From positions 1 to 24,811 of the IMG/VR virus record IMGVR_UViG_3300005782_000025: a stretch of DNA of 24,811 nt; one strand, given 5' to 3'. Each line of letters starts with the position of its first letter. The stretch's first letter is position 1. The DNA comes from a virus. The notes under the pieces are model-generated. The model ran no database searches, had not been told where the DNA came from, and saw only the letters and a list, made by a program, of their open reading frames with translations. Of this stretch, positions 1 to 24,811 are shown piece after piece. Position numbers and translations under genes: made by a program.

Positions 1-119
1 AATGATTGTATCAGACCGATTGATAAAATCATGAGAAGAAACAATACATGGTATGTACTTTTTTGTGATTCGTATCAGTATGAAGAGGCTGAGTACATGA
101 TTGATATGATTTGTGAGGA
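1..119. repeat. Left arm of a 119-base exact terminal inverted repeat
   Basis: Bases 1-119 are the exact reverse complement of bases 24693-24811. The match stops at base 120, where the left copy has A and the right copy, read on the minus strand, has G. The repeat lies inside the 3' part of a small ORF, so each end of the window carries the end of the same gene pointing inward. The true repeat may extend beyond the window. A length of exactly 119 with both ends cut at the same base also fits an assembly that broke at a repeat longer than its k-mer. Confidence 0.97.
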
Positions 120-135
120 AATCTTAGAAAATTAA
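1..135 (+). CDS. Small hypothetical protein, 3' end only (left copy)
   Basis: The frame is open from the first base and codes 44 residues before TAA at 133-135; the start lies outside the window. The visible part contains NNTWYVLFCDSYQYEEAEYM and ends in CEEILEN. The same C-terminal segment occurs on the minus strand at 24677-24811, identical except for the last few residues, which argues that the frame is really translated. I do not recognise the family. It reads toward the three left-flank genes and may share their transcript. Confidence 0.55.
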   Translation, partial: NDCIRPIDKIMRRNNTWYVLFCDSYQYEEAEYMIDMICEEILEN

Positions 136-239
136 CATTTGGGGAAACACTGGTAACCAGGCCAGCATCGTAGCTCGAGGCTACGAGTTTCCATACCCGG
201 TTAACCGGGAAATTAACCGAAACCTTGAGGAGGGTGAAT
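136..239 (+). promoter_or_regulatory. Intergenic leader with two short palindromes
   Basis: This gene-free stretch holds a hairpin at 169-185 (stem CGTAGC/GCTACG, loop TCGAG) and a perfect 14-base palindrome CCCGGTTAACCGGG at 196-209. A Shine-Dalgarno GAGGAGG at 227-233 precedes the ATG at 240. Neither hairpin has a following T tract, so they are not obvious terminators. I see no convincing -35/-10 pair, which fits transcription from upstream. Confidence 0.45.
214..234 (+). repeat. Direct repeat carrying a Shine-Dalgarno (copy 1)
   Basis: A 21-base sequence beginning TAACCGAAACC and ending GAGGAGGG is present here and again, exactly, at 532-552. In both places it ends 5 bases before the ATG of a small gene (240 and 558). 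A repeated translation-initiation segment of this length suggests that the two genes were added by duplication or recombination using a shared leader. Confidence 0.85.
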
Positions 240-449: not shown

Positions 450-557
450 CTATATCCGGGGACCTTCCCGGTATGTCTGATAAGCGGTGCGTCCGGTCGA
501 TGAGTCGATCACGTTCAGGCGGGAGTACTAATAACCGAAACCTTGAGGAGGGCAATT
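450..557 (+). promoter_or_regulatory. Intergenic spacer with hairpin and repeated leader
   Basis: A GC-rich hairpin at 452-474 (stem CCGGG at 456-460 with CCCGG at 467-471) follows the stop of the gene at 240. It lacks a T tract and is not an obvious terminator. The second copy of the 21-base leader repeat closes the spacer. I see no clear promoter. Confidence 0.35.
532..552 (+). repeat. Direct repeat carrying a Shine-Dalgarno (copy 2)
   Basis: Exact second copy of the 21-base element at 214-234. Its terminal GAGGAGGG acts as the ribosome binding site for the ATG at 558. Confidence 0.85.
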
Positions 558-1740: not shown

Positions 1741-1841
1741 CCCGAGGAGGGGACCTGGCCGGACCCTCCTCATTTTACCCGGCAGCCCCATGGGGCTGCC
1801 GGGTAAAATTGCCGGCGGGCTTACGCAAGTAGGAGGGTGCC
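1741..1841 (+). promoter_or_regulatory. Structured leader with competing anti-Shine-Dalgarno pairing (left copy)
   Basis: Three elements and a hairpin are present in order. Element 1 is GAGGAGGG (1744-1751). Element 2 is CCCTCCTC (1764-1771). The hairpin is a perfect 38-base palindrome (1772-1809). Element 3 is the Shine-Dalgarno AGGAGGGT (1831-1838), four bases before ATG 1842. Element 2 can pair with element 1 over 8 bp, or element 2 with its 5' neighbour (ACCCTCCT, 1763-1770) can pair with element 3 over 8 bp. The two pairings exclude each other. A diverged inverted copy at 24557-24660 keeps the same pairings. That it controls translation is inference. Confidence 0.55.
1772..1809. repeat. 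Perfect 38-base palindrome
   Basis: The two 19-base halves (starting ATTTTACCCGG, centre CCATGG) are exact reverse complements. As RNA it would form a long hairpin with a very small loop. It is not a standard intrinsic terminator, because the arm ends AAAAT and is followed by TGCC rather than a T tract. A degenerate inverted counterpart lies at 24593-24630. Confidence 0.95.
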
Positions 1842-1871
1842 ATGAAAACAATAAGAATATGCAAAAAATAA
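1842..1871 (+). CDS. Very short ORF (9 codons) behind a strong ribosome binding site
   Basis: ATG 1842 follows AGGAGGG at 1831-1837, and the frame reads MKTIRICKK before TAA at 1869-1871. It occupies the place that the XRE regulator holds in the inverted right-flank module and also begins MK. It could be a leader peptide, a gene truncated by recombination, or a start left without a gene. An intrinsic terminator begins 29 bases after the stop. It is too short for any homology judgement. Confidence 0.35.
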   Translation: MKTIRICKK

Positions 1872-5520: not shown

Positions 5521-5760
5521 ATGAACAGAAAAAAACAAATGAGTAAAAAAATGATTATCTTTTTTTCTGTTCATATTGTATTAACTATATATATGTTTTT
5601 GATTACTTTTTTTTCTCCGGAATCATTATCTATAATGGGAAATTATATTGTTTGGGCACAAATAGCCAATGCCGGAATCGCTACAGGAGGACGGGTGGCT
5701 GATGATTTTCAAAGGGGAATATATTATAAGCCAGAACTTGATGAGGAAAAGGATGAATGA
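5521..5760 (+). CDS. Holin-like protein with two membrane segments
   Basis: From ATG 5521 the protein is 79 residues. An in-frame ATG at 5506 would add five residues; I prefer 5521 because GGATGG lies seven bases before it and the previous stop is directly upstream, but this is uncertain. There is a basic N terminus (MNRKKQMSKK), then hydrophobic segments at about residues 11-31 (IIFFSVHIVLTIYMFLITFF) and 37-56 (IMGNYIVWAQIANAGIATGG), and a charged tail. Size and topology fit a class II-like holin. Its last eight bases are shared with the starts of two ORFs in the other two frames. Confidence 0.6.
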   Translation: MNRKKQMSKKMIIFFSVHIVLTIYMFLITFFSPESLSIMGNYIVWAQIANAGIATGGRVADDFQRGIYYKPELDEEKDE

Positions 5761-6196
5761 AAAAATTAATATTTGGTTTTTTATTAGTATTATTTTGTCT
5801 TGTTTTTTGGCAGGATGTATTATTATCGGAATATACAATTACATTACAGCAAATAGAAGAAATCAAGAAGCTATACGAAGAGCAGAACAGATTAACAGGT
5901 ATAATATTGCATTACTCGAAGGAAAAGAAAGAACTATTGCAGAACTTACAAGATATAGAGAATCAGAGAGAAATCGACTTGAAAGAGAAAGAAGAATTTC
6001 AGAGAGAGAAAGAAGAATTGAGGAAAGAGAAAAACAGTATAATAGTCGAGAGAGAGAACGAATTGAAAATAGTAGGGAAATCTATAGCAGGATTGGAGAA
6101 GGAGAAAGCGATATTGAAAAAATCGCTAAAACTCTCAAGGAAACAATTAGAAGAGGAAAAGAAATTATCCAGGAAATCATGGCCGGGAATAATTGA
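5753..6196 (+). CDS. Membrane-anchored coiled-coil protein with lipobox-like LAGC (spanin candidate, frame B)
   Basis: A 147-residue ORF from ATG 5753, just after GGAAAAGG. Residues 7-29 are hydrophobic and contain LAGC with Cys22, which matches a bacterial lipobox; the segment stays hydrophobic after the Cys, so a plain membrane anchor is equally possible. The rest is a long Glu/Arg coiled coil (ERERRISERERRIEEREKQY). Topology matches an i-spanin, or a lipoprotein if the Cys is used. GAA strongly outnumbers GAG, as in neighbouring genes, so this frame looks native. It lies almost wholly within the +1-shifted ORF at 5757-6251. The purine-rich composition could keep one of the two frames open by chance. 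Confidence 0.6.
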   Translation: MNEKINIWFFISIILSCFLAGCIIIGIYNYITANRRNQEAIRRAEQINRYNIALLEGKERTIAELTRYRESERNRLERERRISERERRIEEREKQYNSRERERIENSREIYSRIGEGESDIEKIAKTLKETIRRGKEIIQEIMAGNN

Positions 6197-6251
6197 TTTT
6201 CTTATTTGGGGAGTAATAGCAATATTATCATTTTTTGCAGGGAGGATATAA
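5757..6251 (+). CDS. Coiled-coil protein with N- and C-terminal membrane segments (spanin candidate, frame A)
   Basis: A 164-residue ORF from ATG 5757, four bases downstream of the start at 5753 and in the +1 frame. It has a signal-like N terminus (MKKLIFGFLLVLFCLVFW), a Lys/Glu coiled coil (EKEEFQREKEELRKEKNSII) and a C-terminal hydrophobic segment near residues 145-161 (IIDFLIWGVIAILSFFAG). The C-terminal part, after frame B stops at 6196, fills the space to the endolysin, whose Shine-Dalgarno (GGGAGG) lies in its last codons. GAA and GAG are used about equally, unlike neighbours, so the shared region may be secondary to frame B. Nested frames are typical of Rz/Rz1 spanins, though here both ORFs are long. 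Confidence 0.5.
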   Translation: MKKLIFGFLLVLFCLVFWQDVLLSEYTITLQQIEEIKKLYEEQNRLTGIILHYSKEKKELLQNLQDIENQREIDLKEKEEFQREKEELRKEKNSIIVERENELKIVGKSIAGLEKEKAILKKSLKLSRKQLEEEKKLSRKSWPGIIDFLIWGVIAILSFFAGRI

Positions 6252-6254
6252 CAT

Positions 6255-6806
6255 ATGCTTAGAGGGGCAATGTATTATCAAAAAAATCGTGAGAAATTAA
6301 TTGAGATTCAAAATAAAGTGCTTCAGGACAAAGACGTACAACCAGGGTATCCTACATGGGGAGGCCATGTAAAAAAGAAATTGCCATATGAGCCAGGACA
6401 ACAAAAAGGAATTACCTGGTGTAATAGAGGAGCAGAACGGATTGCTCGATTAGCAGGGGCAGATACAAAACCTATACTGCATCGAAAAGGAATAGGGCAT
6501 ACAAACGCTAACGGGATGTACAAATATGCCGTGAAATCTGCAAAGAGAAAAATAATCCGGGAAATCGACATCGAAACAGCGCAGATATTATCCTGGAATG
6601 GCTTTGTAATTTTAGCAACCGCAAAATGCGTGAAGGGTAATCGGCCAGGGCATGTAGTAATATTGCGGCCGACTCCCTTAGGCGAAGAACAGCTATGCGC
6701 TAATATCGGCGGACTCATGGGAGTAATGACCGTAAAAAAAGTCTTTAACGTAAATTATTTAAGCCCGATAAAATATTTTTTATTACCACGAAAAGAAAAA
6801 TCTTGA
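6255..6806 (+). CDS. Endolysin, Cys/His peptidase or amidase type
   Basis: A 183-residue protein from ATG 6255 with GGGAGG upstream. GITWCNRGAERIARL places a likely nucleophile at Cys56, and RPGHVVILRP places a likely base at His133, followed by ANIGG near residue 150. This Cys...GHVV layout is that of papain-like NlpC/P60 or CHAP peptidoglycan hydrolases; which of these cannot be settled by eye. It has no signal peptide, so it would need the upstream holin for export. It is the last gene of the lysis cassette, and its stop codon overlaps the next promoter. Confidence 0.7.
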   Translation: MLRGAMYYQKNREKLIEIQNKVLQDKDVQPGYPTWGGHVKKKLPYEPGQQKGITWCNRGAERIARLAGADTKPILHRKGIGHTNANGMYKYAVKSAKRKIIREIDIETAQILSWNGFVILATAKCVKGNRPGHVVILRPTPLGEEQLCANIGGLMGVMTVKKVFNVNYLSPIKYFLLPRKEKS

Positions 6807-21614: not shown

Positions 21615-22407
21615 TATTTCCCGCAGACTACTTAATGCACTATTACCGGATGGACCTCCATGGTATCCGAAAAAAAATGAAGATTTTGATAAATTCCTCA
21701 ATGGCCTTTCTCTTAATATCGAAAATTTATTGTTGTACCTCGAGCAATTAAGTAATGTAAGAAATCCTTATAATATACCAATTGAATTACTTCCCGATCT
21801 TGAAAAAGAATACGGAATAATTACAAAAAATAATATCTCAATTGAAACACGGCGGATGCAGCTCGCTGTAAAAATATATACCAATGGAGGCACTGGAAGT
21901 CCGGATGATCTACAAAATGCTTTACGCGGTGCCGGATTTGATGTTTATGTTCATCCAAATGATCCGGCGATTGATCCGGCTATTTTGTTGGATCAAAATT
22001 TTCAAGTAACAATTGGAGATCCGGTTTCTGCTTATATCGGAGATCCGAACGCTTATTTCGGAAAATTTGGCGGTTATCTTTTGGTTAATGGTTCCATATT
22101 TACCAGGCGGCCAAAATATTTAGGTATTGGAGATCCGGTTTTTGCTTATATCGGAGATCCGAATGCACAAATTGGTTATTTTTTAGGTTTAGAAATTAAT
22201 GAAAAAACATATAATATCCCCACAGATTCTGATACATGGCCTTTTATTTTTTTTGTAGGTGGACAGGCTGCGAGGGGAGGATCCGGGGAATTGATATCGA
22301 TAGAGAATGCAGAAATTCCGGCTGAAAGACAATCTGAATTTGAAAATATAATATTACGGATTAAGCCTGTCTTTACGTGGGCTGGGATAATAGTAACGTA
22401 TGTTTAA
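21601..22407 (+). CDS. Baseplate/tail protein, Mu gp48-like, with IGDP repeats
   Basis: A 268-residue protein. The first 120 residues (RRLLNALLPDGPPWYPKKNE, NPYNIPIELLPDLEKEYGII, ETRRMQLAVKIYTNGGTGSP) match Mu gp48/YmfQ (DUF2313), which connects wedge to tail fibre. An insert around residues 138-195 contains two copies of IGDPV.AYIGDPNA separated by about 25 residues of glycine- and aromatic-rich sequence. The DNA copies near 22015 and 22129 are almost identical, indicating recent duplication. The C terminus returns to the family pattern (ENIILRIKPVFTWAGIIVTY). Confidence 0.85.
   Translation: MSQPNISRRLLNALLPDGPPWYPKKNEDFDKFLNGLSLNIENLLLYLEQLSNVRNPYNIPIELLPDLEKEYGIITKNNISIETRRMQLAVKIYTNGGTGSPDDLQNALRGAGFDVYVHPNDPAIDPAILLDQNFQVTIGDPVSAYIGDPNAYFGKFGGYLLVNGSIFTRRPKYLGIGDPVFAYIGDPNAQIGYFLGLEINEKTYNIPTDSDTWPFIFFVGGQAARGGSGELISIENAEIPAERQSEFENIILRIKPVFTWAGIIVTYV
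22015..22173 (+). repeat. Tandem IGDP-coding repeats in the gp48-like gene
   Basis: GGAGATCCGGTTTCTGCTTA near 22015 and GGAGATCCGGTTTTTGCTTA near 22129 are nearly identical, and each continues with TATCGGAGATCCGAA. The two units code IGDPVSAYIGDPNA and IGDPVFAYIGDPNA. Confidence 0.85.
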
Positions 22408-24083: not shown

Positions 24084-24113
24084 CCGGGGGTTGAATAATC
24101 AATCCCCGGTTTT
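24084..24113 (+). terminator. Intrinsic terminator ending the structural operon
   Basis: CCGGGGGTTGA (24084-24094) pairs with TCAATCCCCGG (24099-24109) around an ATAA loop with one G-U pair, followed by TTTT (24110-24113). The stop codon of the opposing gene lies inside the hairpin. Confidence 0.8.
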
Positions 24114-24341
24114 ATGTCTTTTCTTAATTATCCTTAATGTTTCATAACATCCTTTAGGGCAATATTTTGATTCAAAATTATTTGCATTATAGCAAAATGC
24201 CCATTTATTGCCATATTGTGAAAACATTATTTTTCTTGCATCCCGTTCATCTTTTGCATTGATTTGAATATAATAATCTTTCATTTCTTCATTGGTTTCG
24301 GGATGTTTATGCATTTGTCCAAATGTAAAATAATACGTCAT
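24099..24341 (-). CDS. Small hypothetical protein (right flank)
   Basis: An 80-residue protein beginning MTYYFTFGQMHKHPETNEEM, then DYYIQINAKDERDARKIMFS and QYGNKWAFCYNANNFE. I recall small phage-encoded proteins with this FTFGQ...ARK.MF...G.KW.F.Y layout; their function is unknown. Two cysteines in SKYCPKGCYETL could form a disulfide or bind a metal. The start overlaps the XRE gene stop, so it is the second gene of a leftward operon. Its stop lies inside the terminator hairpin. Confidence 0.75.
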   Translation of the reverse strand: MTYYFTFGQMHKHPETNEEMKDYYIQINAKDERDARKIMFSQYGNKWAFCYNANNFESKYCPKGCYETLRIIKKRHKTGD

Positions 24342-24556
24342 ACTTTGTCCTCCTTTAATTTGCCGAAATTTTGTATTTCAATTTCATGTTTGATTTTTTC
24401 TATAAGCATTTTCCGATAAGCGACCGGCGGTACACGCTTTCCTTGTTCCCATGCCTGATAGGTACTAAGGGAAAATCCTAAAAATTTTGACATAGATTCC
24501 TGGGTATATCCTATCCTTTTCCGATAGCTTTTCAATTGATCGCTAAATGATTTCAT
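24338..24556 (-). CDS. XRE-family helix-turn-helix regulator
   Basis: A 72-residue protein. Residues 17-45 (YTQESMSKFLGFSLSTYQAW followed by EQGKRVPP) are a clear Cro/CI-type helix-turn-helix, with the usual Q18-E19, LG and W.QGKR positions. The start ATG 24556 follows GAGGAGAG (24571-24564 on the minus strand). It is the only recognisable regulator in the window apart from two small doubtful ones. It lies behind the structured leader, so its own translation may be controlled by it. Target sites are unknown. Confidence 0.85.
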   Translation of the reverse strand: MKSFSDQLKSYRKRIGYTQESMSKFLGFSLSTYQAWEQGKRVPPVAYRKMLIEKIKHEIEIQNFGKLKEDKV

Positions 24557-24660
24557 TCCCTTTCTCTCCTCTTACGTTTCTGCCCGCCGGCAATTTTACC
24601 CAGCAGCCCCATGGGGCGACCGGGTAAAATGAGGAGAGTTTACGTAATGCCCTCCTCGGG
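24557..24660 (-). promoter_or_regulatory. Structured leader with competing anti-Shine-Dalgarno pairing (right copy)
   Basis: Read on the minus strand: element 1 GAGGAG (24657-24652), element 2 CTCTCCTC (24638-24631), a 38-base hairpin (24630-24593), then element 3, the Shine-Dalgarno GAGGAGAG (24571-24564), seven bases before the XRE start. Element 2 pairs with element 3 over 8 bp, or its CTCCTC part with element 1 over 6 bp. The sequences of elements 2 and 3 differ from the left copy, yet remain complementary. The hairpin has two G-U pairs only when read as minus-strand RNA, the sense strand of the XRE gene. Confidence 0.55.
24593..24630. repeat. Degenerate 38-base palindrome (right copy)
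   Basis: Inverted counterpart of the perfect palindrome at 1772-1809. As minus-strand RNA the arms pair with two G-U pairs and one C-U mismatch. Confidence 0.9.
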
Positions 24661-24676: not shown

Positions 24677-24811
24677 TTAGTTTAAATTTAACTCCTCACA
24701 AATCATATCAATCATGTACTCAGCCTCTTCATACTGATACGAATCACAAAAAAGTACATACCATGTATTGTTTCTTCTCATGATTTTATCAATCGGTCTG
24801 ATACAATCATT
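24677..24811 (-). CDS. Small hypothetical protein, 3' end only (right copy)
   Basis: The minus-strand frame is open from the window edge and codes 44 residues, with TAA at 24679-24677. It is identical to the left copy except that it ends CEELNLN instead of CEEILEN. It lies 17 bases upstream of the structured leader of the XRE regulator, so it is probably the upstream gene of that leftward operon. Confidence 0.6.
   Translation of the reverse strand, partial: NDCIRPIDKIMRRNNTWYVLFCDSYQYEEAEYMIDMICEELNLN
24693..24811. repeat. Right arm of the 119-base exact terminal inverted repeat
   Basis: Exact reverse complement of bases 1-119; see the left arm. Confidence 0.97.

Follow-up and report, generated by a model that had tools for sequence, protein, structure and literature searches.

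A reiterated phage mRNA leader before unrelated small genes, best read as a putative Shine-Dalgarno-sequestering switch

The leader of the phage lambda cIII mRNA is described, in a passage of PMC4166951 that cites Altuvia et al. 1989, as adopting two exclusive folds which expose or occlude the ribosome-binding site, while an account of aapA3 of H. pylori, a type I toxin mRNA, attributes control of translation to a metastable hairpin that sequesters the Shine-Dalgarno (SD) sequence (PMC6733600). A different kind of start-associated element is found in the cluster K mycobacteriophages, in which the SAS and ESAS elements are repeated, nearly all in one orientation, immediately before the start codons of different gene families outside the structural region; these elements include an SD core, the SAS consensus being a 13-bp GGGATAGGAGCCC-type sequence located 3 to 7 bp before the start, and about half are accompanied by an upstream inverted repeat (PMC3203893). 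Departures from ESAS generally do not support RNA pairing according to its authors, who favoured DNA-binding proteins (PMC3203893). In prophages, multiple hammerheads flank single genes, an arrangement for which transcript processing has been suggested (Perreault et al. 2011, PMC3088659).

The locus examined here lies near the right end of the window, that is, the whole 24,811-nucleotide stretch of viral DNA that was analyzed, an IMG/VR contig. The leader copy at this position, designated R, spans element 1 through the ATG of an XRE-type regulator gene (24554..24657, minus strand) and scores 107.5 bits with covariance model R1. Element 1 (GAGGAGGG, 24650..24657, minus strand), the putative anti-anti-SD, is separated by an 11-nt loop from element 2 (CTCTCCTC, 24631..24638, minus strand), the putative anti-SD, with which it forms eight of eight pairs, one of them G-U. 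Element 2 is followed by hairpin P2 (24593..24630, minus strand), which has 17 paired positions in 38 nt, two of these being G-U and one a C-U mismatch, and by the small hairpin P3 (TGCC-GGCG-GGCA, 24581..24592, minus strand), for which compensatory changes are seen among the copies (U-A, A-U, G-C to A-U). The SD of the XRE gene (GAGGAGAG, 24564..24571, minus strand) is located 7 nt before the ATG (24554-24556, minus strand), and all eight of its pairs with element 2 are Watson-Crick. The initial annotation had placed these three elements in front of the XRE gene, and all are indeed present there on the minus strand; its observation that element 1 can still pair with element 2 in this copy likewise holds. 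It had further reported two G-U pairs in the hairpin on the strand transcribed into the XRE mRNA only, and these are indeed found, both becoming A-C mismatches on the opposite strand, together with the C-U mismatch that it did not mention.

The gene behind R encodes a 72-aa XRE-type HTH protein (24338..24556, minus strand; Pfam HTH_3, 9.4e-08, and HTH_31, 1.1e-07), the end of which is overlapped by an 80-aa gene (24099..24341, minus strand; PHROG 13997). Upstream of R lies the 3' part of a gene encoding MRTNLTRKERKQ... (24677..24811, minus strand), here termed gene X, whose stop codon is located 19 nt before element 1, and no promoter-like site was returned by a scan of the stretch that separates it from the XRE gene. 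The contig ends, window positions 1-119 and 24693-24811, constitute a perfect 119-nt inverted repeat within gene X, which is thus present in opposite orientations at two sites about 24.6 kb from each other; a duplicated gene at which the assembly broke is the probable explanation.

R had been described as the second of two copies of the leader, and, while the second copy is real, the window virus harbors at least three, with five known in total. The left copy, L, occupies 1744..1844 on the plus strand (97.2 bits, model R1), with element 2 (CCCTCCTC) at 1764..1771 and a P2 of 17 perfect pairs at 1772..1809, a perfect 38-bp palindrome as DNA (both on the plus strand). L leads into an ORF of 9 codons (MKTIRICKK, read from the sequence; 1842..1871, plus strand), after which a terminator-like hairpin with a T run is located at approximately 1903-1926; this ORF is possibly the relic of a lost gene. 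The third copy, U (L014:5471-5572), precedes gene X in IMGVR_UViG_3300028837_001169, a contig of this virus that extends further and is 100% identical over window positions 226-24811. Pattern searches retrieved the fourth and fifth copies, Q (L019:3331-3434, contig 3300028837_001110) and S (L017:8060-8167, contig 3300037297_000142), one in each of two gene-unrelated phages. Across phages the leader is 81-90% identical, though these phages have few or no other similar DNA stretches in common: in tblastn and blastn comparisons, only the leader and a weak methyltransferase similarity link the S phage to the window virus, and the Q phage is linked to it by the leader, a second leader, the methyltransferase, a single small gene, and a further weak match.

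Copies were sought with DNA patterns in IMG/VR, in distant searches of phages and plasmids, with one pattern in a genome collection, and by a covariance-model scan of the collected loci and of 395 genomes from the phylum of the sole host-genome match. Beyond the five copies, those searches yielded just a weak variant (L017:5804-5899, E 2e-5), which has an anti-SD, a hairpin, and an SD without element 1. In the collections scanned, the leader is carried by only three viruses; the 395-genome phylum sample contained no real leader copy. A match in L064 was set aside as a G+C-rich hairpin judged to have arisen by chance, and L016 and L059-L063 have short words in common only. The portal protein had a single genome match, to a Desulfobacteraceae metagenome-assembled contig (49% identity).

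The five copies share one orientation and one layout, in which a same-strand gene stops 8-19 nt ahead of element 1; after this come element 2, P2, P3, the SD (GAGGAGAG or AGGAGGG), and the ATG, with the SD 2-7 nt before the start. Given the close placement of the same-strand stop before element 1, the leader sits in a polycistronic array. The ORFs that follow are unrelated, being the XRE gene (R), gene X (U), the 9-codon ORF (L), and ORFs of 56 and 62 aa in the Q and S phages, in neither of which was an XRE homolog detectable. For this reason, the proposal that the XRE gene is the natural controlled target of the leader finds no support as a generalization.

Elements 1 and 2 form eight of eight pairs in every copy, whereas element 2 and the SD do so only in R, with 7/8 in L, U, and Q and 6/8, including a G-U, in S. 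It had been claimed that element 2 and the SD of R differ from those of the left copy and are still fully complementary, which is correct for R but not for L. At the variable position, element 1, element 2, and the SD vary in concert, reading G/U/A in R, A/U/A in Q, and G/C/G in both L and U. R is the copy with a G-U in its element 1 pair yet perfect pairing to the SD; such triple variation is of the kind that would tune a balance between two states. P1, the hairpin formed by elements 1 and 2, is an 8-pair G+C-rich structure with an invariant AUUUUA directly after it. P2 as RNA contains mismatches and G-U pairs in four of the five copies; read as DNA, its dyad departs from Watson-Crick complementarity at 4-6 of 17 positions in U, Q, and S, most of which still pair as RNA. 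Invariant columns are found mostly in helices and the loops and linkers vary, with the exception of the P3 GGCG loop, which is present in four of the five copies.

A covariance model was built from the five copies and then used to realign them. In the resulting alignment, standard pairs occupy 97.1% of cells across the three helices, against 44-59% (maximum, 58.6%) when partners were slid by 1-3 columns. Six pairs (one in P1, three in P2, and two in P3) are changed on both sides, compared with 2.3 in shuffled alignments (1 of 500 as high), and the covariation score is 0.243 versus 0.150 (0 of 500), values to be read for five sequences, two of them (L and U) nearly identical around P1, in an alignment fitted to the structure. 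P1 and the helix between element 2 and the SD each contribute one variable position. On the mRNA strand, P2 has 12 G-U cells and 3 A-C cells, the latter belonging to one shared column and the cells not being independent; this asymmetry is as expected under selection on RNA rather than DNA. RNA fold z-scores are -4.5 for R and -4.9 for L and only -2.1 for U. An SD, an anti-SD, and an anti-anti-SD matching over 7 nt were found together before 2 of the 175 genes called in the three phages and in none of 3500 shuffled upstream regions, and the XRE leader triple at 8 nt was absent from 3000 shuffles. The anti-SD:SD half alone appeared in 27 of 3500 shuffled regions and is cheap because all SDs resemble each other, an anti-SD such as CTCCTC being able to pair with part of any GGAGG-type SD, such that most of the SD pairs come nearly free. 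The initial annotation's suggestion that RNA pairing, not a DNA site, is under selection is supported by these compensatory and G-U changes, which constitute good but, for five sequences, not final evidence.

Folding was predicted with flanks of 0 to 60 nt at 25 or 37°C, with ribosomes, proteins, and kinetics ignored. Under all of these conditions R is predicted to be mainly closed, i.e., with the SD paired to element 2 (P 0.88-1.00), and is the most strongly SD-closed of the copies. U, Q, and S are predicted to be open, element 1 being paired with element 2 at P 0.99-1.00 for all flanks, although in U at 37°C the SD is predicted to be mostly paired by other bases, and the predicted state of L shifts with the flank (bistable). 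In R, an upstream CUUUUUGG is able to pair with element 1, which would favor the closed state further, while in S, predicted to be open by 12 kcal/mol and with six of eight SD pairs, a closed state is doubtful. Sequence and folding together place mutually exclusive pairings, one of them over the SD, in R, L, U, and Q and, weakly, in S. A possible pseudoknot between the P1 loop and the sequence before the SD in R (UUACGU/ACGUAA) was dropped, as it is inconsistent among the copies.

We propose, with a probability of roughly 55%, that the leader is a portable, cis-acting phage mRNA element which would set translation initiation of the small ORF that follows. In the open state, element 1 would capture element 2, so that hairpin P1 stacks on P2 and the SD is free; in the closed state, element 2 would instead pair with the SD, which would form a three-way junction around P2 and P3 and hide the SD. 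The two states would be mutually exclusive, and we infer that both arise in the cell and affect translation. Individual copies may have been tuned separately, the XRE copy toward the closed state and most others toward the open one, in which case little regulator would be made as long as the closed fold is left undisturbed. One natural candidate for the trigger is traffic of ribosomes on the upstream gene, given how close its stop is to element 1; co-transcriptional folding is another, and the 5'-to-3' order of the elements implies that the open fold would form first during transcription.

The main rival to this proposal, and in our estimation an unlikely one, is that the leader is an RNA-processing or operon-punctuation element, whose P2 stem and P1 would be cut by RNase III or shield RNA ends, so that a polycistronic phage mRNA is split up into messages the size of one gene. 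RNase III sites in phage T7 split the polycistronic mRNA in this manner, and the start of the leader 8-19 nt past the upstream stop is consistent with such a role, as is the occurrence of hammerhead-like leaders in the same small-gene arrays, including the E 0.0091 match in 3300037297_000142, given the processing function suggested for prophage hammerheads (PMC3088659). Processing does not, however, predict the matched variation of element 1, element 2, and the SD, and the mismatches and G-U pairs of the P2 RNA in four of the five copies also argue against it; moreover, there is almost no conserved unpaired core, and the leader is itself unlikely to be a ribozyme. The same lack of a conserved unpaired core led us to reject a ribozyme or ligand aptamer, and a metabolite riboswitch, which would show a highly conserved unpaired ligand-binding core, is not what the copies resemble. 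We regard as improbable the further possibility that the leader is a DNA element, either a portable module or a boundary for recombination, which as a mobile palindrome or a patch of homology would help to shuffle small genes and regulate nothing itself. Leader identity of 81-90% between phages that otherwise have little or no similar DNA in common is what such a module would leave behind, and the lead-in by L to just 9 codons, a 26-nt SD-plus-first-codons motif that recurs four times, and a switch of sequence exactly at an SD between two assemblies of the window virus point the same way. Yet the shared orientation and close SD-to-start spacing of all five copies argue against it, as do the compensatory and G-U changes that keep RNA pairs, which would be needless for a DNA homology patch. 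The two roles can coexist.

An operator at which the palindrome binds the XRE protein, providing autoregulation at R and control of structural genes at L, is very improbable. The perfect 38-bp palindrome of L and the placement of one copy before xre and of another ahead of the portal operon recall the usual phage repressor layout, but as DNA the Watson-Crick complementarity is lost at 4-6 of 17 dyad positions in U, Q, and S, most of which still pair as RNA, the Q and S phages are without a detectable XRE homolog, and the sites abut the SD, with no promoter-like site found beside R. Least probable of all is a transcription attenuator in which P1 and AUUUUA form a weak terminator and the closed fold an antiterminator: the 8-pair G+C-rich P1 does stand directly before the invariant AUUUUA, but this holds only four U, a terminator scan gave no terminator-like site at the leaders, and its U run belongs to P2, as the 5' arm of that conserved helix.

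The arrays that carry the switch leader also hold G+C-rich leaders of other kinds. Hammerhead-like leaders sit directly before the SDs of small genes, comprising a hammerhead II match in contig 3300037297_000142 (L017:6920-6979, minus strand; E 0.0091, below the gathering score), a core in the Q phage just upstream of the gene before Q (L019:4022-4090, minus strand, and about 12166 on the minus strand; core motif only), and others at L037:670-741 (plus strand; below gathering) and L045:1-86 (plus strand; core motif only); each of these either lies in the arrays of the switch leader or has the GAAACCTTGAGGAGGG end. Virus 3300022698_000334 carries leaders of this kind, likewise ending in GAAACCTTGAGGAGGG, with a weak Rfam score. 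The hammerhead core itself, CUGANGA ... GAAA with three stems, is absent from all five copies of the switch leader. A second kind of leader, CCCGGTATGYCTGRTAAGCGGTGCGTCCG...CCGAAACCTTGAGGAGGG, is present at window positions 456-557 (plus strand) and at L019:4260-4380 (minus strand) with 92% identity over 92 nt, in phages that otherwise have mostly different genes; its long conserved segments appear unpaired, and it has no match in Rfam.

Other features were noted in the same genomes. The two assemblies of the window virus diverge left of window position 226 (window 1-225 versus L014:5471-5712), such that one holds an intact gene X 3' end and a separate leader, while in the other gene X is truncated exactly at an SD, which suggests either that the strains vary here or that recombination took place at the leader. 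The 26-nt stretch TGAGGAGGGTGAATATGAAGACATTA, spanning an SD, a start, and the first codons, occurs at L014:5227-5252, 5713-5738, 6031-6056, and 6237-6262 before four different genes, three of which begin MKTL. An intergenic leader of about 200 nt (L014:5030-5240) before a 73-aa gene contains several short segments that are complementary to one another and might fold into a pseudoknot, and window positions 22012-22189, in a 268-aa tail-region gene, hold two 64-nt direct repeats, 80% identical and 114 nt apart.

It is possible, although we advance this tentatively, that this phage group possesses a toolkit of portable RNA start modules, including the SD switch, hammerheads, and at least one further leader, which move from phage to phage independently of genes. 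If so, each small gene in a polycistronic message would receive its own processing and translation setting. The arrays shared with hammerhead-like leaders offer a concrete setting for the question of phage hammerhead role. Repeated start-associated phage elements had been noted previously and not explained, RNA pairing being judged unlikely in the best-described case; the combination of RNA covariation with an explicit anti-SD and anti-anti-SD makes the idea of portable RNA start modules directly testable with reporters.

With respect to known systems, Rfam 15 gave no gathering-score match in the window and, under lax scanning, only unrelated subthreshold matches at the leaders, while a mir-8 match was dismissed as a plain hairpin artifact. 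The prophage hammerheads are likewise structured RNAs between small phage genes, with several per region, and aapA3 resembles the leader in SD sequestration but differs in its bacterial toxin-antitoxin context and in not being reiterated. By genomic behavior, the closest system is SAS/ESAS, also composed of repeated start-associated elements before genes of different families; the SDs of the present leader lack SAS flanks, however, and here the departures support RNA pairing and an anti-SD and anti-anti-SD are explicit. By mechanism, the closest system is lambda cIII, both being phage mRNA leaders with exclusive folds, predicted in the present case, that open or occlude the ribosome-binding site; temperature control is not indicated here, since the predicted states are equal at 25 and 37°C in four of the five copies. 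Whereas cIII involves one leader and one regulator gene, at least five leaders stand before unrelated ORFs in three phages here, and the leader is best supported as an SD-sequestering switch, a known type of mechanism, that would here be reiterated as a portable module.
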